NCBI GenBank assembly: GCA_017448245.1
Contig: JAFSLV010000033.1
Coordinates: 1-49,232, forward strand
DNA from: Lachnospiraceae bacterium
Lineage (GTDB): Bacteria > Bacillota > Clostridia > Lachnospirales > Lachnospiraceae
Direction: 5' to 3'
DNA: 49,232 bases
The notes under the pieces are model-generated. The model did not search any database and had not been told where the DNA came from. It saw only the letters and a list, made by a program, of their open reading frames with translations. A program made the position numbers and the translations under genes. Of this stretch, positions 4,354 through 15,411 are shown in pieces. How positions within the stretch are numbered: the first letter of the stretch is position 1; each line of letters starts with the position of its first letter.

Positions 4354-4482
4354 ATGAGCGACAGGGAATTGCAGGAACTGTTCCGGCTGCTGGATGAGAT
4401 CTATATCATGCATCCGAAGGTCGCACAGGAGCTGCTCAGGCGGATCCTCGAGATACTGCAAAGCGCCGGTGACGAAGAATAA
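4354..4482 (+). CDS. small acidic helical protein, 42 aa
   Basis: A 42-codon reading frame between the lipoprotein and the sigma-factor gene. The sequence has a Leu/Ile heptad-like pattern (LQELFRLLDEI, AQELLRRILEIL) and should be one or two amphipathic helices with no membrane segment. An in-frame TTG at 4249 would lengthen it, but the extension is basic and unlike the rest. The ATG at 4354 has GAGG about 8 nt upstream. The stop lies 21 nt before the sigma-factor start. I do not recognise a family; a small partner of the sigma factor is possible but is only a guess from position. Confidence 0.55.
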   Translation: MSDRELQELFRLLDEIYIMHPKVAQELLRRILEILQSAGDEE

Positions 4483-4503
4483 CATCAATTGAAGGTGAAG
4501 AGT

Positions 4504-6426
4504 ATGCAGGACACAGGAAACACACAGGTTTTCACGCAGGAGCTGATCGAAAGGGCGATCCGGAGCGATTCGATGGCGCAGACCACGCTCTATAACGCTA
4601 CGTACAATCCCGTTTATGCGCTGGTCAAGTCGATGGTCAAAGAAGAAGACACGGTGCTTGATATTGTACAGGACAGCTATGTCAAGGCCTTTTCCAATCT
4701 GCACCAGCTGCAGGAGGCGGACAAATTCCGCCCCTGGGTAAAGAAGATCGCCAAAAACCGTACGATGGACTATTTCCGGGAGCGCAAGGCCGTGATGTTT
4801 TCGGCCATGGCGCCGCTCGACGCGGAGGATGCGGAGGTGGAGTTTGAGGATACCGATCCGCGTTCGCTCCCGGAGGTGGTGATCGACCGGCAGGAAACGG
4901 CAAGACTCCTGAAGGAGATACTGGACGACATTCCCGACGACCAGAGAGCGATCATCTCCATGCACTACTATGGAGAGATGAGCGTCAGGGAAATCGCACA
5001 GGAGCTGGGTCTCAACGAAGCCACGGTCAAGAGCCGGCTGCGGTACGGAAAACAAAAAATAGAAACAAAGGTACTGGACCTCGAGAAAAGGGGTACCAAA
5101 ATCTACGGCCTTGCGGCGATCCCGTTCCTTGTGCTGCTGCTGCGTAACAGCGAGGCGTACGCGATGGAACCGGATGCGGCAGCGGGATGCCTGCAGCGGA
5201 TCTTTGGCCGTATCGGTGCGGGTGCGGGCCATGTCGTAACATCCGGTGCGGGCGCGGGAGCCGGCATGGGCGCTGGTCATCTACAGGGCGCCCCGGGTGC
5301 CGCGATGGCGGGCGCTGGTCATGCACAAAACTATGCGGCACAGGCCACGGGACTTTCGGGCGTCGGAAGTGTTGCGGGTACGGCAGCAGGCACCGCCGCA
5401 AAAGGAGGGCTTCCCCTGGCGGTCAAGATCCTGATCGGTGCGGCCGCGGCAGTGGTCATCGGTGCGGGCGCATTCTTTGTCATTCCCGCGGTCACTTCCC
5501 GCAATGATACGCCTGCAAGGCAGGAGGTACAGGCGGAGCCGCGCGGTGCGCAAGGAACAAGTGACAGCGGGGATGCTGCCGGCGCACCGGGACAAAACGA
5601 TGCGTCACAGGGTGACAACGCCGGAGGCGCACCTTCCGGAGCAGAGGATGCCGCGGCACAGGAGGATTCTCTTCTGGCACCGGTGCTTGATGAGCTGACG
5701 CAGTTTGCTGCATTGTGCGAACAGGAATCCTATGAGGAGATACAGACTCTTTTGCACGGCGCATCCTATGATGCGGTCTATGAGCTCTTTGACGGGATCA
5801 GGGATCAGATGCCTGTAATGATCGATACGGCGCACGGACGCGTCGGCGTCTATTATATGGACAGAGTCCCGAGGGACGCGCAGATCGCACTGACGAGACT
5901 GTGCAACTATATGCTCTACTGGGGAGACTGGGCAGACGGAGATATCCGCCAGGGCGAAGGGGTATGGGCCGGCAGCGGATATCTGGATGTGGGCACCTGG
6001 GATCACGATGTGCCGGAAGGGTCCCATATGTCTTATAAGTATGTGACATCCGGTTATTATACATCTTATCGGGATGAATCGTTTGAGGCGCATCAGGTGA
6101 TTACCGATGATGCCGGGTCGGAGGTGCCGCCCCGTCTGTATGCGACGTTGACAGGCTCCGTGACGAACGGATTGTGGAACGGTACCATGCGGATGAATCA
6201 GCTGGGAGAAGGCCAGCAGGGGATGAGAGCCATATATGATGCCACGTACAACATGGGCATGATGAATGTCGTACATGTCGATAATGACCGGCCGGACGGA
6301 CGCTACTGCTATTATTTTGCACTGCAGAATATCGATGGAGAGCCGTACAAATTCAGTGTCAGCGATTTTGGCTTTGCCTACTATGACACGCACGGCATCC
6401 GCGGCTATGCCGGATGGGACTTTTAG
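4504..6426 (+). CDS. ECF-like sigma factor fused to a membrane-anchored extracytoplasmic domain
   Basis: A 640-aa protein in three parts. Residues about 25-95 match sigma-70 region 2 (DIVQDSYVKAF, FRPWVKKIAKNRTMDYFR). Residues about 135-190 match region 4, with the helix-turn-helix MSVREIAQELGLNEATVKSR. A Gly/Ala-rich stretch (about 236-300) leads to a single transmembrane helix (about 303-331). An Ala/Gly/Asp-rich linker and a globular C-terminal domain (about 396-640) then lie outside the membrane. A normal ECF factor has only about 170-200 residues. No anti-sigma factor is encoded beside it. I chose the ATG at 4504 (GAAGGTG upstream) over the TTG at 4489. The layout suggests a one-protein sensor and transcription factor, which is inference. 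Confidence 0.85.
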   Translation: MQDTGNTQVFTQELIERAIRSDSMAQTTLYNATYNPVYALVKSMVKEEDTVLDIVQDSYVKAFSNLHQLQEADKFRPWVKKIAKNRTMDYFRERKAVMFSAMAPLDAEDAEVEFEDTDPRSLPEVVIDRQETARLLKEILDDIPDDQRAIISMHYYGEMSVREIAQELGLNEATVKSRLRYGKQKIETKVLDLEKRGTKIYGLAAIPFLVLLLRNSEAYAMEPDAAAGCLQRIFGRIGAGAGHVVTSGAGAGAGMGAGHLQGAPGAAMAGAGHAQNYAAQATGLSGVGSVAGTAAGTAAKGGLPLAVKILIGAAAAVVIGAGAFFVIPAVTSRNDTPARQEVQAEPRGAQGTSDSGDAAGAPGQNDASQGDNAGGAPSGAEDAAAQEDSLLAPVLDELTQFAALCEQESYEEIQTLLHGASYDAVYELFDGIRDQMPVMIDTAHGRVGVYYMDRVPRDAQIALTRLCNYMLYWGDWADGDIRQGEGVWAGSGYLDVGTWDHDVPEGSHMSYKYVTSGYYTSYRDESFEAHQVITDDAGSEVPPRLYATLTGSVTNGLWNGTMRMNQLGEGQQGMRAIYDATYNMGMMNVVHVDNDRPDGRYCYYFALQNIDGEPYKFSVSDFGFAYYDTHGIRGYAGWDF

Positions 6427-7175: not shown

Positions 7176-7859
7176 CTATGCCGACGTCAGGTCCTTGATG
7201 ATCTCCGAGGCGATGATGAGTCCGGCAACGGACGGAACAAAGGCGACGGATGCCGGCGGGCGTGCGTCGCTTTTTGGCTCTTCCGTGGAATAGATGACCT
7301 TGAGATGGTCGATGCCGCGCTTTCTGCATTCCCTGCGCATCACCTTGGCGAGAGGGCAGACGCGGGTATCATAGAGATCGGCGACACGGAAGGCCGTGGG
7401 ATCCAGCTTGTTGCCGGCCCCCATGCAGGAGATGACGGGGACGCATGCCTCCCTTGCCTTTTCTATAATCGCCAGCTTGCCGGTCACGGTATCGACGGCG
7501 TCCGCCACATAGTCATAGAGAGAAAAATCAAAGGCATCCGCACTCTCCGGCAAAAAGAAGGTCCGGTGGCAGGTGACAGCGCAGCCCGGGTGGATACGCA
7601 GGACGCGTTCTCTGGCAACCACGGTCTTTTCGCGTCCGATGGTATCGGTCGTCGCGATGATCTGACGGTTCAGATTGGAGAGCGCGACCACATCGCGGTC
7701 GATCAGATCGAGTGCACCGATCCCGCTTCTTGCAAGCGCCTCCACCACATATCCGCCGACACCGCCGATACCAAAAACAGCTACACGTGCGCGCGACAGT
7801 CTTTCAAGCCCTTCTTTTCCGAGGAGCCCCCCGGTTCTTTCAAAAGCCGATTCCGCCAT
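7176..7859 (-). CDS. tcdA: tRNA threonylcarbamoyladenosine dehydratase (TcdA/CsdL-like, ThiF family)
   Basis: An E1-like enzyme that uses ATP to convert t6A at position 37 of ANN-decoding tRNAs into its cyclic form. The 227-aa product has the Rossmann ATP-binding motif GIGGVGGYVVEALARSG, the DRDVVALSNLNRQ segment and a late catalytic-region Cys (CMGAGNK). The PSDARPPAS-like segment near the end reads PKSDARPPAS. Length is slightly short of the usual 250 or so. No ribosome binding site precedes the ATG; instead an extended -10 ends 6 nt before it, so the mRNA may be leaderless. It is on the minus strand, 46 nt behind the solute-binding lipoprotein gene. Confidence 0.92.
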   Translation of the reverse strand: MAESAFERTGGLLGKEGLERLSRARVAVFGIGGVGGYVVEALARSGIGALDLIDRDVVALSNLNRQIIATTDTIGREKTVVARERVLRIHPGCAVTCHRTFFLPESADAFDFSLYDYVADAVDTVTGKLAIIEKAREACVPVISCMGAGNKLDPTAFRVADLYDTRVCPLAKVMRRECRKRGIDHLKVIYSTEEPKSDARPPASVAFVPSVAGLIIASEIIKDLTSA

Positions 7860-7865
7860 GTGTTT

Positions 7866-7874
7866 ATTGTATCA
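7866..7874 (-). promoter_or_regulatory. extended -10 promoter of tcdA
   Basis: On the minus strand the sequence reads TGATACAAT, an extended -10 element. Its last base lies 6 nt before the tcdA ATG, which would put the transcription start at or next to the start codon. The -35 region is weak. The regulator gene at 12930 has the same nine bases. Confidence 0.55.
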
Positions 7875-7905
7875 TCCGACGGGCCGGGAATAAAGAGGAA
7901 GTATC

Positions 7906-9990
7906 CTACCTGCGTTCCTCCAAATACAGGCTTACACGCGACTGAACGACATGCGCTGTTTCTTCGGCGGATTTCTGTCCGGAGAGAAATGCGGTGATCT
8001 CTTCATAAATGATGTCGTACAGGATATCTTCCGGATAATAGAAGGAGGTCGTTTGCTCCATTGCTTCCAGCATCTTTGAGACATCCTCTTCGGTGCAATG
8101 CGCATCTTCCATTTCCTGTATATGCTCGATACGTGCGTCACGAGAAGCTTTTGTCACTGCAAAACCGCTGCCAAATGGTGCACCCGGCATGATCTCACGA
8201 TCCTGCCATTCTCTGTCATAGATACCGCGGATAAACTGCCAGGCTGCGTCTTTATTTGCGGTCTGCTGCGGTATGGCAAAGACAAGTCCAAAAGGACTCG
8301 GTTCAAAATATCCGCCGGGGGTCCCTTCGTCATTCGGAAATCCGATATAACTGTAATTGCCGGGGCCATAGGTCAGGGCGCATCCGTTTGCATGAAGTTC
8401 ATTTTGTGCCCCATGAAACTGCAAAAGAATGCGCTCATCGTCATCCTGCATTGCACCTTCTGGTGCACACAATGCCCCGGCAATTTCGATAAAGGATAGC
8501 AGGTCTGTAAAACTGTCTTTTTCAAAATCACATGTCATTGTGTCAAAATCTACGCAGTCACCGATACTCATCATGGCTGCGTGCGCACCCAAAAATTGCC
8601 GGTTCTGCCACCAGTTAAAGGTATAGGATTCTGGGTGCGCCGCCAATAATTGTTCAAAGTCCTTTGTCGTCCATGTATTACGGTCTCCTACCGTCTGGCT
8701 GCGTCCGGTGATCGTGACAAACCAAAAGGAATCCATTGCAAACAACATCTTCCCCTCCATCAGCATCAGTTGAAAGATGTTTTCAACAAGGTCGTCTCCG
8801 GCAAGTGTTTCGTCCTCGTTGAGCAGCGGTAGCAGATCGGTAAATGACGCTTCGGAAACAGTGATGGTTGTCTCATTCAGCAGCAGCACATCAGGCGCCG
8901 TGCCGGCAATCAATTCGGTTTTTAACCTCGATGTATTTTCAGGACCATAATAGATGATTTCCGCAAAATACGCATCCTGTGAGGCGTTAAACCGAGCAAC
9001 ATACGGCTCCAGGTCATTACCTTCACGGTTAATTGCACCGATCGTGATTTTTTTGCGTTGCGATGTGTCCTCGATGATTTCAATGCGATTCAACACATTG
9101 TTATTGCGCATCGCGCATAATAATTCACCGTTCTTCAGTGATACCATATGGCAGATATCACCACCGGAGAATCCGGCTTGTTCCCAATCAAAGATTTTCT
9201 CCGGGATGTATTGCGTTGTATCAAACGTGTAGACACTGGTCGATGTATTCAGGAATAATTCATTTTCAAATCCGCTGAATGCAGTGGATGAAAGTCTGTG
9301 TATTTCATCTGTTGTCATTTCCTGCTCGGATTGCATAGTTGTTTTGTTTATTTTGCGCAGTACAGTCGTACCCCCATCGGCGAGCAGGATATAGCAATGG
9401 TCTGCATGACGCAATATACCGCAGATTTGTTGTCCGGACTCCAAGCCGGTTACGGAAAGCGATTTGTGTCCGTCAATGCAATATATCTGATCGGATGACC
9501 AGAGAAGAACGGAATGTTCCGTCAAATGAAAGGGGCCAAAGAGAGTCTCACCTTGCGTGAGGGATTCATCGGATATATCAATGGATTCCTTTACCTCGCC
9601 CCTGTCCGTATAGAACACGATACCGGACGGAAAATAGAGGATATAACCGTCCTCTTCATGTGCGCATATGCCAATAATGGATGCATCCCCGTTATCCGGA
9701 TGTTCCGGTATATATCCCGTGAGTTCATTCCCGCTTACATCAATCACGGAAACATACGGATGATAATCAGACATACCCGCAACCACGATCGAGCCGCTCT
9801 GTGTCTTTACAACGCCTGTAATGGAGTCAAATCTGCCGGACAGATCCAAGTCATGTACATACACATCGTTGATTACCGTTATTTCTTCACGGCCATCTGT
9901 CAGGCCTGCCTGCTGTGAGGCTGTAGCACAGCCGCACAGCAGGCAAAAAATGCAAAGAATCAATTGTACCGATAGAACACGTCGGATCAT
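7906..9990 (-). CDS. lipoprotein with N-terminal beta-propeller-like region and C-terminal family 1 solute-binding domain
   Basis: A 694-aa protein with a lipoprotein signal (Cys21 in LLCGC). Residues about 40-310 are a run of short beta-rich repeats typical of a propeller fold. Residues about 313-694 resemble an extracellular sugar-type ABC solute-binding protein: an opening strand ITIGAI, then TELIAGTAPDVLLL, then a C-terminal helical lobe with GFAIPQQT-like and AWQFIRGIYD segments. Ordinary binding proteins of this family have about 420-450 residues and no propeller. No permease or ATPase gene is nearby, so it is an orphan and may sense rather than import. A GGAG lies 14 nt before the ATG, longer than usual. 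It is probably in one operon with the two small genes upstream. Confidence 0.82.
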   Translation of the reverse strand: MIRRVLSVQLILCIFCLLCGCATASQQAGLTDGREEITVINDVYVHDLDLSGRFDSITGVVKTQSGSIVVAGMSDYHPYVSVIDVSGNELTGYIPEHPDNGDASIIGICAHEEDGYILYFPSGIVFYTDRGEVKESIDISDESLTQGETLFGPFHLTEHSVLLWSSDQIYCIDGHKSLSVTGLESGQQICGILRHADHCYILLADGGTTVLRKINKTTMQSEQEMTTDEIHRLSSTAFSGFENELFLNTSTSVYTFDTTQYIPEKIFDWEQAGFSGGDICHMVSLKNGELLCAMRNNNVLNRIEIIEDTSQRKKITIGAINREGNDLEPYVARFNASQDAYFAEIIYYGPENTSRLKTELIAGTAPDVLLLNETTITVSEASFTDLLPLLNEDETLAGDDLVENIFQLMLMEGKMLFAMDSFWFVTITGRSQTVGDRNTWTTKDFEQLLAAHPESYTFNWWQNRQFLGAHAAMMSIGDCVDFDTMTCDFEKDSFTDLLSFIEIAGALCAPEGAMQDDDERILLQFHGAQNELHANGCALTYGPGNYSYIGFPNDEGTPGGYFEPSPFGLVFAIPQQTANKDAAWQFIRGIYDREWQDREIMPGAPFGSGFAVTKASRDARIEHIQEMEDAHCTEEDVSKMLEAMEQTTSFYYPEDILYDIIYEEITAFLSGQKSAEETAHVVQSRVSLYLEERR

Positions 9991-10025: not shown

Positions 10026-10301
10026 TCAATCTTTTCTTTTTCTTGCGAGTCGGTAGTACAACAGCCCGCACATCAAAACATATACATCTAAATAAAGCAT
10101 TGCCCACTCACCGATCACCGGCCACCCGTCTTTGAACAGCACCGCCCGTCCGGTTGCCAGTTTTGCTATTTCATAGAATAATAAAAGGGCACCGCCTATC
10201 GTAAATAACCATTTAAAGATCCGTTGTTCGAAGGTGGGTGTGAATGTCTCGTTTTCCGTCCTTTCGGTTATTCTTTCATCTTTCATATTTGTGCAGGTCA
10301 A
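10026..10301 (-). CDS. small membrane protein of unknown function
   Basis: The product has up to 91 aa with a charged N-terminus and two hydrophobic segments (LFTIGGALLLFYEIA and AMLYLDVYVLMCGLLYY), ending in a basic tail (RLARKRKD). A TTG start at 10301 overlaps the stop codon of the upstream secreted-protein gene (TTGA). An ATG at 10286 would give 86 aa. Neither has a strong ribosome binding site, so translation is probably coupled to the upstream gene. The tight coupling to a secreted protein recalls immunity or processing partners of secreted peptides, but no family is recognised and that role is speculation. Confidence 0.68.
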   Translation of the reverse strand: MTCTNMKDERITERTENETFTPTFEQRIFKWLFTIGGALLLFYEIAKLATGRAVLFKDGWPVIGEWAMLYLDVYVLMCGLLYYRLARKRKD

Positions 10302-10711
10302 CGAGAATTCCAGCCGTTATCATAGTATATGGCCAGAGGAACATTTACAATGTTGGGAAGCGCACCTCCGAACGCCAAATACAGCGCAGACTGACCGGCC
10401 CAATAGCCAACCCCGTTATTTCTACAGAACATCCCAAAATGATATGCTGCATCTGTGTATGTCTGATATGTTGCAATATATATCGCTGCTAATGAAAGCA
10501 GCGTCGCAGCACTTAAAGACTGTGGCGACACCACCTCTCCGGGGTGTCCGGCCTTCAGTGTAATCAGAGAGTCAGACATTGCCGAGTCTTCGAAATGCGT
10601 TTGCGGTCCGTCTGCCGGTCCTGCCGCAATTGCTGTCACGCCGTTTGACGCAAAAATACAGAAACTCATGATCAGTGCCATGGTTTTTCTCGCCATTCTT
10701 TTTGTCTTCAT
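10298..10711 (-). CDS. secreted protein of unknown function, 137 aa
   Basis: A classical signal peptide (basic KTKRMARK, hydrophobic core, AIAA before Gly) would release a mature chain of about 107 residues. That chain has a polar part and then a C-terminal part rich in Gly, Ala, Tyr and Asn (NNGVGYWAGQSALYLAFGG). It has one cysteine, so no internal disulfide. I chose the ATG at 10711 because AAAGGAGGT lies 5 nt upstream; the longer frame to 10744 lacks this. The gene heads the minus-strand set and faces the peptide gene at 10940 across a 228-nt promoter region. The hydrophobic Gly/Ala tail would suit a membrane-active or bacteriocin-like protein, but I cannot assign a family. Confidence 0.78.
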   Translation of the reverse strand: MKTKRMARKTMALIMSFCIFASNGVTAIAAGPADGPQTHFEDSAMSDSLITLKAGHPGEVVSPQSLSAATLLSLAAIYIATYQTYTDAAYHFGMFCRNNGVGYWAGQSALYLAFGGALPNIVNVPLAIYYDNGWNSR

Positions 10712-10787
10712 AAAGACCTCCTTTGTTGGATTATTAATTGGCAAATCTCATTTGATTTCATAACAGGTTATCGCGTGTTTCATGAAG

Positions 10788-10816
10788 ATTGTAATGCGTA
10801 AAACAGCGATAGTAAA
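10788..10816 (-). promoter_or_regulatory. promoter of the secreted-protein operon with overlapping palindrome
   Basis: On the minus strand TTTACT (10816-10811), a 17-nt spacer and TACAAT (10793-10788) form a good vegetative promoter, giving a leader of about 70 nt. A perfect palindrome, GTAAATAATCATTTAC at 10812-10827, overlaps the -35 element. It is a natural candidate operator for the HTH regulator encoded at 11104-12930. Confidence 0.55.
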
Positions 10817-10868
10817 TAATCATTTACAGCATAAGTCTTCGTTCGTAAAAATATGCTGACAATGAATA

Positions 10869-10897
10869 TTGATTAACAACCGGGGTTGATTCATACT
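10869..10897 (+). promoter_or_regulatory. promoter of the secreted peptide gene with palindrome in the spacer
   Basis: TTGATT (10869-10874), a 17-nt spacer and CATACT (10892-10897) form a plausible promoter about 40 nt before the peptide ATG. The spacer contains the 12-bp palindrome CAACCGGGGTTG (10877-10888), suitably placed for a dimeric regulator. Confidence 0.5.
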
Positions 10898-10939
10898 GCA
10901 TATAGTGATTGATTTATTTATCATACGGAGGATGTTTCT

Positions 10940-11107
10940 ATGAGAAGAGCAAATGTAATGCGACAAGTATTTATATTGTTTTTTAGCGCACTGGCAATCA
11001 TCATCATATTGCCGTCTTGTCCGCCTGCAGACAACGGAGGGTATATAAACGAGGAGCCTGCGGAGCCGCAGGATGATTATGATATTCCGACTGAAATCTT
11101 TCTCTAA
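10940..11107 (+). CDS. small secreted peptide precursor, 55 aa (candidate signalling peptide)
   Basis: A 55-codon frame with a near-ideal ribosome binding site (ACGGAGGA, 8 nt before ATG). The product has a basic start (MRRANVMRQ) and a hydrophobic core (about 10-24). An LPSC sequence could serve as a signal or lipoprotein cleavage site. An acidic, Pro-rich tail of about 28 residues ends in DIPTEIFL. Size and layout match precursors of exported pheromones such as PapR-type peptides, where the active peptide is cut from the C-terminus. They also match lipoprotein-signal pheromones, where it comes from just before the Cys. The gene runs into the end of the convergent regulator gene, overlapping by 3 nt. 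The peptide role is inferred from this layout. Confidence 0.7.
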   Translation: MRRANVMRQVFILFFSALAIIIILPSCPPADNGGYINEEPAEPQDDYDIPTEIFL

Positions 11108-12930
11108 CAGAAAGAATTGATTTTACTCAGATAAAACTCTCTTTGTCCATGGTTGTTACAGAATTCACTCAATGCCAGGCAGCGGTACAATATGTCCGTT
11201 GCCTGGCGCTTGTTGACGTTCTGCGTTTTGCTTTTATTCCAATAAAGATTATACAGGTTTCTTTCCAAAACGCCGATGCGATACCTTTTCAGGCATTCTT
11301 TTATTGTGAAATGACTGATGTCATCAGACTTTTTATATTCCTGATTGTTTCCGTAGACACTTTCAACCAGTGACATTACAAATTCATATAAGTTAATATA
11401 AATACCGATTAATCCGGTGTCTTGTATGTTTCTAAAATGCGTTTCGAAGACGGTAATCAATGGAGTTATATCTTTTTGAGATCTGTTACATACCACCGCC
11501 AGGTTTTGAAGACAATTCAATTCCCCCTTTGATAAAAAGATCTCTTTACCTTTTATAATACTTTCATAGGGAACGGTCAGTTCGAGGCATTTCTTTAAAC
11601 GTGAAATGCATTCATCCGTATCGATGAGATTCTGTCGATAATCCATCATGCATTCCATTCGGTCGACATACTGCCGGTTTATTCGCTCCTCCATGGGGAT
11701 CTTTTGTATGACTTGTTTCAGGATTTTTCTTGCTTCCGCAAAGCGTCCGTTGGAAAAACTTTTTTTGGACAGCTCCAGCATGTCAAAGACCGATGCATCT
11801 TCCGTAATTACAAAACGCATCATGGACTCTGCAGGCAGATTCAGAGCGGTGAATAACCTGCGAAAAGTATCTGTCTGTGTTCGTGCATTATCTTTTTCTG
11901 CTCTGTATACGGTAGCCATTCCGATATTTGCCAGATCGCCCAGCTCTTTTTGGGTATATCCAAACATATTCCTTCGCACACGAATGACATGACCGATGGA
12001 GTAGTTTTCCGTGGAATTATATATATATGCGTCATGTGTCATCTTCGTCGGGATATCATAGGCGTGATACGCTTCCAAAAAGGCCTTTTTCCATCTGTTG
12101 TTTTGATCCATATCTCCAAGCAAACGGACGTCCGTGCATACGCTTTTTGTTCTGCGCTCAAGGAGGTATTCGCGTAATTCGAGCAGTTCTGTCAAATAGT
12201 AAGATCGCTGTGTCCTGCGAAGTATATCAAGTGTTTGGCTACATATCTCAAGACTTTCTGCTGTCCATATATCCGCATCGTCATCTTTTATAAGCGACTG
12301 CAGATAATAACACACCGCCTTGGGAAGGATCTTTGATTGCAGAAGTAATTCGTAGTGATTGCTTTGGGCAAGGCTGATCAAGTCGCGCAATCGTTCTTTC
12401 CGTACACGTGCGTCAGAAATGGTAAAAGTATACTCTAACAGAATGTTCAGTTCGGAAACGGATAACAGCACCGTGCCAGGATTAACAGATGCCGCGGAAG
12501 GGATGGTACACGCCATAGCTTCCGAGTACAATTTGTGCAGTTCCCCGGACGAAACGCCCGATTCTTTTTTTAGATGTGCATGCATCATGAGAGAAAACTG
12601 CTTCGCAATGGCATGGTTTTTGGGCAGGAGGTGATCATACAGTTTCAATGCACGGTTAAAACCTGTGGCATTCCGGTTATGAAGTGACTCAAGAATCTGA
12701 TGTCTTGCATGAAACAATTCGGCCTCCTCCGGCCGTAAGTACTCTTCAAACCCTTCTACGGAGTAGCCAAGTCTCCCGATCAGGAATTCTCTTGTCATTT
12801 TGTCTGTTTTATACTCTCCCCGTTCAATTCGCGAAATAAAGGAATTGGAGGATGACAAGCCCTGGCCTAACTTTTCCTGTGAGATTTTCTTTGACTTTCT
12901 GAGGCTTTTTAGAAGTTTCGGAAAACTCAT
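11104..12930 (-). CDS. tandem HTH (XRE) and helical-repeat regulator, RNPP-like
   Basis: A 608-aa cytoplasmic DNA-binding protein made of two similar halves. HTH1 spans about residues 4-60 (LRKSKKISQEKLGQGLSSS, FISRIERGEY). HTH2 spans about 312-370 (TQKELGDLANIGMATVYRAE). Each is followed by about 240 residues of alpha-helical, TPR-like sequence. Peptide-binding regulators of the Rgg/PlcR/PrgX (RNPP) type usually have one HTH and about 280-320 residues, so this looks like two such units in one chain. A GGAG lies 10 nt before the ATG at 12930, behind an extended -10. The gene converges on a secreted peptide gene, the usual neighbour of RNPP receptors. The RNPP assignment is inference from architecture. 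Confidence 0.8.
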   Translation of the reverse strand: MSFPKLLKSLRKSKKISQEKLGQGLSSSNSFISRIERGEYKTDKMTREFLIGRLGYSVEGFEEYLRPEEAELFHARHQILESLHNRNATGFNRALKLYDHLLPKNHAIAKQFSLMMHAHLKKESGVSSGELHKLYSEAMACTIPSAASVNPGTVLLSVSELNILLEYTFTISDARVRKERLRDLISLAQSNHYELLLQSKILPKAVCYYLQSLIKDDDADIWTAESLEICSQTLDILRRTQRSYYLTELLELREYLLERRTKSVCTDVRLLGDMDQNNRWKKAFLEAYHAYDIPTKMTHDAYIYNSTENYSIGHVIRVRRNMFGYTQKELGDLANIGMATVYRAEKDNARTQTDTFRRLFTALNLPAESMMRFVITEDASVFDMLELSKKSFSNGRFAEARKILKQVIQKIPMEERINRQYVDRMECMMDYRQNLIDTDECISRLKKCLELTVPYESIIKGKEIFLSKGELNCLQNLAVVCNRSQKDITPLITVFETHFRNIQDTGLIGIYINLYEFVMSLVESVYGNNQEYKKSDDISHFTIKECLKRYRIGVLERNLYNLYWNKSKTQNVNKRQATDILYRCLALSEFCNNHGQREFYLSKINSFC

Positions 12931-13547: not shown

Positions 13548-14540
13548 ATGCAATACAGCGATATTGGAATAGACCTCGGCACGGCTTCCATCCTGGTATA
13601 TATCCGGGGGAAGGGTGTCGTGTTAAAAGAGCCGTCGGTCGTCGCCTATGACCGCGATACCGAAAAGATCAAGGCAATCGGCGAGGACGCAAGGCTCATG
13701 CTGGGACGTACCCCCGGCAATATCGTGGCCGTGAGGCCCTTGAGGCAGGGCGTGATCTCGGATTACAAGGTCACGGAGCAGATGATGAAGCACTTCATCA
13801 CCAAGGCGATCGGCCACAGGGCATTCAGAAAACCGCTCATTGCGGTGTGTGTCCCCTCCGGCGTCACGGAGGTGGAGCGCAAGGCGGTCGAGGACGCGAC
13901 CCTGATGGCGGGGGCGAGAGACGTCCGCATCATCGAGGAACCGATTGCGGCAGCGATCGGCGCAGGCATCGATATCACCAAACCCTGCGGCAACATGGTC
14001 GTCGATATCGGCGGCGGCACCTCGGACATCGCGGTGATTTCTCTTGGCGGCACGGTCGTATCGGCCTCCGTCAAGATCGCGGGAGACGACTTTGACGAGG
14101 CGATCGTCAGGTACATGCGCAGAAAGCACAACCTCCTCATCGGGGAGCGCTCGGCGGAGGATATCAAGATCCGGATCGGCAGCGCTTACCCGCACGCAGA
14201 GGTGGACTATATGGACGTCAGGGGCAGAAATCTGGTGACGGGCCTGCCCAAGACCGTTAAGGTATCGAGTGAAGAGACGGAGGAAGCATTAAGGGAAACG
14301 ACGGCTCAGATCGTCGAGGCGATCCACTCCGTATTGGAAAAGACCCCGCCGGAGCTGGCGGCGGATATTGCGGACAGAGGAATCGTTCTGACGGGAGGCG
14401 GCGCCCTGCTGAGAGGTCTCGAAGACCTGATCGCCTCGAAGACGGGCATCAACACCGTCACCGCGGAAGATCCGATGACCGCCGTTGCGGTCGGAACGGG
14501 ACGATATGTGGAGTTCTTAGCCGGATATCATGATGATTGA
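13548..14540 (+). CDS. mbl: MreB/Mbl-family rod-shape actin homologue
   Basis: A membrane-bound actin-like filament protein that guides sidewall peptidoglycan synthesis. The 330-aa product has the family's nucleotide-binding motifs: DIGIDLGTAS (phosphate 1), VVDIGGGTSDIAVIS (phosphate 2) and LTGGGALLRGLEDL (adenosine). EEPIAAAIGAG is also present. Length is normal for MreB/Mbl. Start: AAAGGGGC precedes the ATG. I name it Mbl because two flagellar rod/hook-like genes follow directly, as in Bacillus mbl-flhO-flhP; sequence alone does not separate Mbl from MreB. No mreC/mreD is linked. Confidence 0.9.
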   Translation: MQYSDIGIDLGTASILVYIRGKGVVLKEPSVVAYDRDTEKIKAIGEDARLMLGRTPGNIVAVRPLRQGVISDYKVTEQMMKHFITKAIGHRAFRKPLIAVCVPSGVTEVERKAVEDATLMAGARDVRIIEEPIAAAIGAGIDITKPCGNMVVDIGGGTSDIAVISLGGTVVSASVKIAGDDFDEAIVRYMRRKHNLLIGERSAEDIKIRIGSAYPHAEVDYMDVRGRNLVTGLPKTVKVSSEETEEALRETTAQIVEAIHSVLEKTPPELAADIADRGIVLTGGGALLRGLEDLIASKTGINTVTAEDPMTAVAVGTGRYVEFLAGYHDD

Positions 14541-14607: not shown

Positions 14608-15411
14608 ATGGTCAAAGGCCTGTACACAGCCTATACGGCAATGCGAAACGAGCAGCATCGCATGGATATCACGACCAATAACCTCGCCAATGTCAACACG
14701 ACGGGCTTCAAAAAAGAGGGCAGTGTGTCGCAGCCGTTTTCTGACGTTCTCGGCATCAAGATCAAGGACCGTTCCGATACCTTTGCCGCAAGGCCGCTCG
14801 GCACGCTCAACCTGGGCGTCAAGCTCGGGGAGACCTACGTGGACTGGTCACAGGGGCCGTTTCGCGTGACGGACGAGACCTTTGACTTTGCTCTGGGCGG
14901 CAACGGCTTTTTCATGATTGAGTACACCAACAAGGCACCCAATGTCCGCCGCGACGAGGCGGGACAGACCACGATCATGTATACCCGCGACGGCAATTTC
15001 ACGCTGCGGGAGGACGGGACGCTCGTCACCCAGGACGGCGACTACGTGCTCGACATGAACGGCAATCATATCCTGTTGGATCCGCTCGCGGAAACCGCCG
15101 TCAACATGCAGGGACAGATCTGGCAAAACGGAGTCGTGGTTGCGGAAATCGGGCGTACGGATTTTGAGGATTACAATACGCTGATGCGTTACGGGGAAAA
15201 CTTTTTCGAGCCGGTGGAGGGTGCGGTACAGATCCCCGCGACCGGCACGGTATATCAGGGATATCTCGAGCAATCCAATGTCTCGACGGTGGATGAGATG
15301 GTCAACATGATCGCCATTCAGAGACAGTATGAGGCAAATGCCACGATGATCCAGACAGAGGATGAGACACTCGCAATCGCGGTGTCACAGGTGGGGAGAC
15401 TGAACGGCTGA
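14608..15411 (+). CDS. flhO: flagellar hook-basal body rod protein, FlgF/FlhO-like
   Basis: A 267-aa axial flagellar protein, exported by the flagellar type III system and built into the rod. Residues 1-35 carry the conserved N-terminal helix and ANDIF-like motif (NNLANVNTTGFKKEG). The middle has the hook-domain signature (FALGGNGFFMIEY, YTRDGNFTLREDG). The C-terminus ends in the coiled VDEMVNMIAIQRQYEANA segment. A GGGAGC site lies before the ATG. It follows mbl by 67 nt and precedes a paralogue by 23 nt. FlgF versus FlgG is hard to tell by eye; order matches Bacillus flhO. Confidence 0.9.
   Translation: MVKGLYTAYTAMRNEQHRMDITTNNLANVNTTGFKKEGSVSQPFSDVLGIKIKDRSDTFAARPLGTLNLGVKLGETYVDWSQGPFRVTDETFDFALGGNGFFMIEYTNKAPNVRRDEAGQTTIMYTRDGNFTLREDGTLVTQDGDYVLDMNGNHILLDPLAETAVNMQGQIWQNGVVVAEIGRTDFEDYNTLMRYGENFFEPVEGAVQIPATGTVYQGYLEQSNVSTVDEMVNMIAIQRQYEANATMIQTEDETLAIAVSQVGRLNG

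Follow-up and report, generated by a model that had tools for sequence, protein, structure and literature searches.

In the PlcR-PapR system of the Bacillus cereus group, a regulator with a helix-turn-helix (HTH) and tetratricopeptide repeat (TPR) fold is encoded beside a secreted propeptide, and peptide-gated regulators of this kind are normally homodimers. The RRNPP or RRNPPA systems, as described in the available parts of a survey made with RRNPP_detector (PMC10075063), likewise place a TPR and HTH receptor beside a secreted propeptide, often with the target operon nearby. Here we analyzed a 49,232-nucleotide stretch (the window) of contig JAFSLV010000033.1 of a Lachnospiraceae bacterium (assembly GCA_017448245.1; 2.54 Mb, 99.5% complete, 48 contigs). 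In it, a propeptide gene, a receptor whose best match by profile and structure is PlcR, and a divergent operon for a secreted protein probably form a self-contained peptide quorum-sensing switch of the PlcR/PapR type with a duplicated receptor. The features of the locus are as follows.

10940-11107, + strand: signal propeptide gene, 55 amino acids (aa); open reading frame (ORF) with ribosome-binding site CGGAGG and, by reading, a Sec-type signal
11104-12930, - strand: receptor/regulator, 608 aa, HTH-TPR-HTH-TPR; HTH_3 twice, AlphaFold2 model, PlcR match
12040-12930, - strand: receptor N-half, residues 1-297, HTH and TPR; homologous to the C-half, own lineage in the tree
11104-12039, - strand: receptor C-half, residues 298-608, HTH and TPR, likely the peptide-reading half; the PlcR match lies here
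10815-10870, no strand: candidate operator, an inverted repeat; shuffles, stronger repeats in relatives
10298-10711, - strand: secreted protein, 137 aa, bacteriocin-like by context only; ORF with AGGAGG upstream of the start at 10711
10026-10286, - strand: membrane protein with two transmembrane (TM) segments by reading, 86 aa, candidate immunity protein; ORF

The original prediction, made from the letters of the window, described the ORFs and their coordinates, convergent peptide and receptor genes with stops overlapping at 11104-11107, a 228-nt divergent gap, and an operon of a secreted and a small membrane protein; all were found as described. The peptide stop (11105-11107, +) and the receptor stop (11104-11106, other strand) interlock over 4 nt, and the gap between the secreted-protein ORF and the peptide gene is 10712-10939. 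The membrane protein has an alternative TTG start at 10301, overlapping the stop of the preceding secreted-protein ORF.

From background on PlcR/PapR and the data below, we infer a sequence of secretion, maturation, import, binding and promoter activation. The propeptide, which ends in ...DDYDIPTEIFL, would be secreted by means of its signal sequence, processed into a short pheromone from its C-terminus, around DIPTEIFL, and re-imported by an oligopeptide permease; the OppA family is represented by three SBP_bac_5 proteins over the cut-off. Judging from co-divergence in close relatives, the pheromone would bind mainly the C-half TPR. The receptor, as a covalent N/C pair with two HTHs, would then bind the inverted repeat between the divergent promoters, as the repeats of its relatives suggest, and switch on both the peptide gene, in a positive loop, and the operon. 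The secreted protein would most likely be antagonistic and bacteriocin-like, with the two-TM protein as its immunity partner, and the frequent overlap of the convergent genes hints at possible antisense interference between them.

The receptor is a tandem duplication related to PlcR

Pfam HTH_3 matches the receptor over two stretches (E 4.7e-13), and its two halves are homologous (E 6.7e-27), indicating a tandem duplication of an HTH-TPR unit; the boundary at residue 297/298 is our own choice. The best solved match is PlcR, both by profile (E 3.3e-10), where the match falls within the C-half, and by fold. The AlphaFold2 model (pLDDT 85.8) matches the structures of PlcR, Rap, ComR, Rgg and NprR, among general TPR proteins. 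The following traits of an RRNPP(A) receptor are present: a TPR peptide-binding domain (model matches), an N-terminal HTH DNA-binding domain (HTH_3, two stretches) and an adjacent small propeptide with a secretion signal (10940-11107, +). By eye, only part of the PlcR peptide-contact asparagines seem kept in the profile alignment, and we draw nothing from this. The original prediction had matched no protein of the locus to a known family, which holds for the secreted and membrane proteins and is overturned for the regulator by the HTH_3 and PlcR matches.

A convergent peptide gene recurs beside related receptors

The recurrence of the peptide gene was examined in a first set of 57 stretches (the window, 14 of the 15 members of an earlier set, L040, L042, and 40 places from a search of 299 genomes). 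The strict rule required an ATG start, a ribosome-binding site, 30-100 aa, a basic N-terminus, a hydrophobic core, convergent orientation and a position from -60 to +250 nt relative to the receptor stop; the secretion signal was called by a simple rule of our own and not by a trained predictor. Thirteen rows that were N-halves, fragments or at contig edges were excluded, and L021 (genome G068) was not counted, its receptor being truncated by a contig end. Of the 54 related systems, 39 have a convergent signal-peptide ORF at the 3' end of the receptor gene; among the other genes of these stretches that are 150 aa or longer, 8/387 satisfy the same rule. The peptide therefore stands next to the receptor more often than chance provides. 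The genes overlap in 25 of the 39, with an exact overlap of -4 in 13.

A second set held 20 further stretches from the 299-genome search list. All six double or paired systems carry the peptide, and under the strict rule none of the 13 single-unit HTH-TPR homologs does (L126-L135, L139, L144, L145; L130 and L139 lie near contig ends). One single-unit relative of the first set, L033, does have a convergent peptide. This association with double or paired receptors speaks against an alternative that we consider improbable, in which the regulator senses something else, such as envelope stress, and the small ORF encodes a membrane or regulatory protein, or the two form a toxin-antitoxin-like pair. 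The receptor HTHs do match, below the cut-off, antitoxin models including couple_hipB, and binding of the peptide by the receptor is a prediction. Against this alternative, the TPR domains match PlcR, and the peptide combines a signal sequence with a variable tail.

The peptide tail and the receptor C-half diverge in close relatives

The close Butyrivibrio systems L023, L024, L025 and L027 have propeptides that are very similar save for the last ~7 residues. Codons were compared in three pairs, L027 being excluded for its length: the nonsynonymous rate (dN) rises from 0.01-0.06 ahead of the tail to 0.20-0.77 within it (~21 sites). In the four receptors, identity is 95-99% in the blocks holding the two HTHs, 69-83% over residues 81-280, and 53-63% over residues 401-520, in the C-half TPR. 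A variable tail and a fast C-half TPR are expected of a pheromone that is carried in the tail and read by the C-half.

In the same pairs, the synonymous rate (dS) over the whole peptide gene is 0.12-0.25, well below the 0.50-1.43 of the adjacent receptors taken by half. These low-dS peptide genes lie at 10662-10880 in L023, 8753-8971 in L024 and 8740-8958 in L025, and their low dS may reflect recombination or a constraint at the DNA level.

Inverted repeats upstream of the peptide gene

The repeat at 10815-10870 has arms of 19 nt, 16 of them paired, a spacer of 18 nt and a center 97 nt from the peptide ATG; one of 1000 shuffles was as good. Repeats were sought in the 260 nt that precede the peptide start, with 150 control regions from the same stretches. 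Best scores of at least 18 occur in 26/40 systems vs 6/150 controls, and 27/40 systems reach the control 95th percentile. Repeats scoring at least 12.5 are centered 75-125 nt from the peptide start in 27/35 cases, compared with 4/23 in the controls. The arms are 17-35 nt long in 33/40 systems, and within them a core near ATGAC is common to diverged systems, found by a simple expectation-maximization procedure of our own without a shuffled control.

Such repeats could instead form an RNA hairpin, an attenuator in the leaders, since long, near-perfect arms around short AT-rich loops would fold as RNA. We regard this as hardly likely, given that the repeat sits between two divergent genes in many systems and that a pure stem would not need the core of about ATGAC that diverged systems share (again without a shuffled control).

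With a half-site pattern made from the two arms of the window repeat, no other place in the genome was found within 2 mismatches, so the regulon is probably local; five places were found at 3 mismatches, and a reversed control pattern gave one match. The original prediction had pointed to two different palindromes in the gap. Both exist (ATAACAGGTTAT at 10760-10771 and CAACCGGGGTTG at 10877-10888), but we reject them as significant sites, with 6 such short perfect repeats observed vs 2.9 +/- 2.0 in shuffles; the longer repeat at 10815-10870 is the one that stands out. The PlcR box, TATGNAN4TNCATA, has no match in 10712-10939 at up to 2 mismatches and 13 in the whole window at that tolerance, as chance gives. 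The single-unit L033, whose repeat is equally long, makes it less likely that the long arms are a consequence of the fused double HTH.

The divergent operon and its counterparts in relatives

Neither the secreted nor the 86-aa membrane protein has a match over the cut-off in Pfam, NCBIfam or PHROGs, and the secreted protein matches no curated bacteriocin family (best Pfam E 2.4, below the cut-off). The secreted protein has one convincing relative (37% identity over the C-terminal 82 residues, E 1.7e-9), in genome G241, and none in the 193 other relatives of the first sample. In G241 it is flanked by two small two-TM ORFs; downstream come a gene that reads as GntR-like, an ABC ATPase gene and one for a DUF6449 protein. 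No double receptor was seen beside it. A two-row profile of the secreted protein gave extra matches that were weak and lay mostly over the signal peptide. None was counted as a relative, including that in G109 (profile positions 3-123, in a 377-aa frame) and that in G248 (E 0.0046).

Outputs were surveyed in 42 systems with a called peptide (the 39 strict ones plus L020, L030 and L112, the last at a contig edge). In 36 of them a gene of 90 aa or more is found within 700 nt past the peptide, and it is divergent in 30 of the 36, so that the gene order proposed in the original prediction, receptor plus convergent peptide with a divergent neighbor, recurs. The refutation that the prediction had named for itself, a lack of conserved order, is thus not borne out. 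Signal-like N-termini are found in 14/30 divergent first genes vs 113/574 genes overall; one of the 14, in L042, is by reading an ABC membrane protein. PF04055 radical-SAM genes lie beyond the peptide in L022, L032, L040 (behind a masked stretch, more than 1 kb away), L113 and L121, a SPASM-only match in L102 and a ThiF gene in L098. For L022, L032, L113 and L121, peptide maturases lead the listed NCBIfam matches, all below curated cut-offs. FtsX permeases occur in L090 and L107, and ABC ATPases in L107, L118 and L120. The divergent operons of relatives often code for radical-SAM peptide clusters or secreted proteins.

Ahead of the radical-SAM genes, 44-aa Cys-containing ORFs lie at 8026-8160 (-) in L022 and 4357-4491 (-) in L113. 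They have no NCBIfam match and are candidate precursors of ribosomally synthesized and post-translationally modified peptides (RiPPs) under peptide/receptor control. In L084, the first divergent gene (7367-8218, +) is HEPN_Swt1-like (E 7e-6, just below the cut-off), a possible link to defense.

The bacteriocin and protection factor suggested in the original prediction are thus a plausible reading of the sequences, although no known bacteriocin family is matched: the radical-SAM genes in five relatives, ThiF in one, small secreted proteins and the ABC and FtsX proteins favor it. The position of the G241 relative between two-TM ORFs near an ABC transporter supports, without proving, bacteriocin plus immunity. 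The same circuit might instead drive a non-antagonistic product, the secreted protein being a surface, matrix or host-interaction factor and the two-TM protein its assembly partner. We hold this possible, if less probable than not, with evidence on either side: the secreted protein lacks a bacteriocin family match, and some relatives control genes for a Big_2-domain protein, a 1375-aa secreted protein, a glycosyltransferase or an EAL protein. The RiPP-type genes listed above, several of them with ABC proteins by reading, and the surroundings of the G241 relative argue for an antagonistic product.

Neighboring genes

One further gene may belong to the operon.

7906-9990, - strand: solute-binding-like lipoprotein; SBP_bac_1 E 0.025, below the cut-off

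It begins 35 nt beyond the membrane protein ORF, and no terminator-like site was called on the minus strand in this gap. Its membership in the operon, which the original prediction had left as a possibility, stands in so far as it is probably co-transcribed. The lipoprotein probably has no special tie to the circuit, because it belongs to a genus-wide paralog family (five matches in its own genome; 56 of the 99 genomes searched, own included, all of the window's genus). No permease gene is apparent beside it in the window. A 645-aa ORF at 4489-6426 (+) has extracytoplasmic function (ECF) sigma-70 regions 2 and 4 within its first ~195 residues and, by reading, a hydrophobic stretch followed by a long C-terminal part; it looks like a membrane-tethered sigma factor. 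Beyond the receptor 5' end lie an MreB/Mbl gene (13548-14540, +) and a FlgEFG-type flagellar rod gene (14608-15411, +).

Distribution and history of the receptor halves

Receptor relatives were found in 39/299 sampled family genomes, own included, and those with names belong to Butyrivibrio and Pseudobutyrivibrio, both Lachnospiraceae; the window itself is probably Butyrivibrio-like. Among cultured Butyrivibrio, MC2021, P18 and Su6 carry such systems. Because conservation in the distant receptor alignment (A1) was too low along its whole length for a scan of the collection, a closer alignment (A2) was used instead: 78 stretches matched, and 9 loci were confirmed. Viral contigs contained no relative of either the receptor alignment or the secreted protein; plasmids contained none of the secreted protein, and phages none of the receptor.

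A tree was built by a quick method, with long branches flagged, from 92 half-units, obtained by dividing 41 fused receptors and adding the genes of four split pairs and two singles. Thirteen regulators that were fragmentary or odd were set aside beforehand, as were L024 and L025 (near-duplicates) and the fused L121 (581 aa) on account of its overly short N match. One side of the tree (SH-aLRT 98) comprises every one of the 41 fused N-halves and the four split N genes; the other (98) comprises all 41 fused C-halves, the four split ones and the two singles. N and C units are adjacent genes in eight systems (L032, L109, L114, L115, L119, L136, L137, L138), four of which are in the tree. Given this separation and the adjacent-gene pairs, the halves are old and distinct partners.

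There is, in our view, an even chance that these systems constitute an undescribed, family-wide class of Lachnospiraceae quorum sensing. Its receptor would be an obligate N/C hetero-pair, fused as a rule but in some cases encoded by adjacent genes, in which the C-half reads the pheromone and both HTHs bind an extended palindrome. The stop-overlapping peptide gene would provide antisense feedback, and the outputs would be mainly RiPPs or secreted antagonists.

Weighing the proposed quorum-sensing switch

Several observations weigh against the locus being such a switch. In the fold search, the lead of PlcR over general TPR proteins is only ~2 Z units. With the strict rule, no peptide is called in 15/54 systems (L019, L020, L029, L030, L086, L088, L089, L092, L094, L096, L099, L101, L105, L106 and L119; a relaxed rule gains a candidate in L020, L030 and L092), and the ambiguous pair L140 of the second set has no peptide. 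The sampled systems share ancestry, with close orthologs among them, and the counts are not independent trials. Tail dS is also high (0.32-0.76, on fewer than 4 sites), and positive selection on the tail is not supported by the three pairs. The window repeat, with a score of 13.5, falls short of the control 95th percentile (15.8); of the six peptide-bearing systems in the second set, two reach 18, one scores 17.5 and three score at most 12. The convincing relative of the secreted protein occurs in 1/396 other family genomes, and the single-sequence model of the protein (pLDDT 48) is too poor for a fold search. The divergent genes of some relatives do not look like products: a glycosyltransferase (L023, and close relatives by reading), EAL (L031, L114), LytTR (L028), HEPN-like (L084) and, by reading, MFS-like proteins. 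Control of the divergent secreted operon by peptide and receptor, as originally predicted, is nevertheless well supported by the conserved order, the PlcR homology, the operator-like repeat in many relatives and the variable peptide tail, with the qualification that the controlled gene differs between systems.

Comparison with known systems

The circuit differs from PlcR-PapR in its duplicated receptor (608 aa, two HTHs), its convergent overlapping genes and its long inverted repeat; its gap holds no PlcR-box-like site, and the receptor is 13% identical to PlcR in the structural alignment. The PapR heptapeptide ADLPFEF, as given in the available part of PMC6568020, resembles the window tail DIPTEIF by eye. 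The RRNPP_detector survey by default keeps receptors of 250-500 aa (PMC10075063), so the ~600-aa form, including the 608-aa receptor, is excluded, whereas the genes of split-pair relatives (251-356 aa) would fall within that range. Lachnospiraceae are not among the families with signal-linked biosynthetic clusters in the relevant passage of PMC10075063, and the string 'Lachnospir' occurs 0 times in the main texts of PMC10075063, PMC9765709 and PMC12700828. Among the matches listed from the open PMC literature, in their available parts, neither a double HTH-TPR receptor nor such a Lachnospiraceae circuit is described.

Rgg/SHP systems have single-unit receptors, belong to another lineage and use other operators than the window circuit. 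They are alike in that, in the available part of PMC13361665, Rgg/SHP control of streptococcal radical-SAM RiPPs links a cytoplasmic peptide receptor to radical-SAM peptide clusters. Lachnospiraceae are abundant in the rumen and gut, yet are unnamed in the main text of the large RRNPP survey (PMC10075063). If the proposed circuit is real, some twenty RiPP or secreted-protein loci in the sample would gain a predicted, synthesizable inducer peptide, and the fused or split hetero-receptor would be a natural case of how a normally homodimeric peptide-gated regulator works with diverged halves. The arrangement is real and conserved, and we read it as a duplicated variant of RRNPP signaling; the circuit of the original prediction is right for the most part, and its kinship, its doubled receptor and its breadth are what is added to it.

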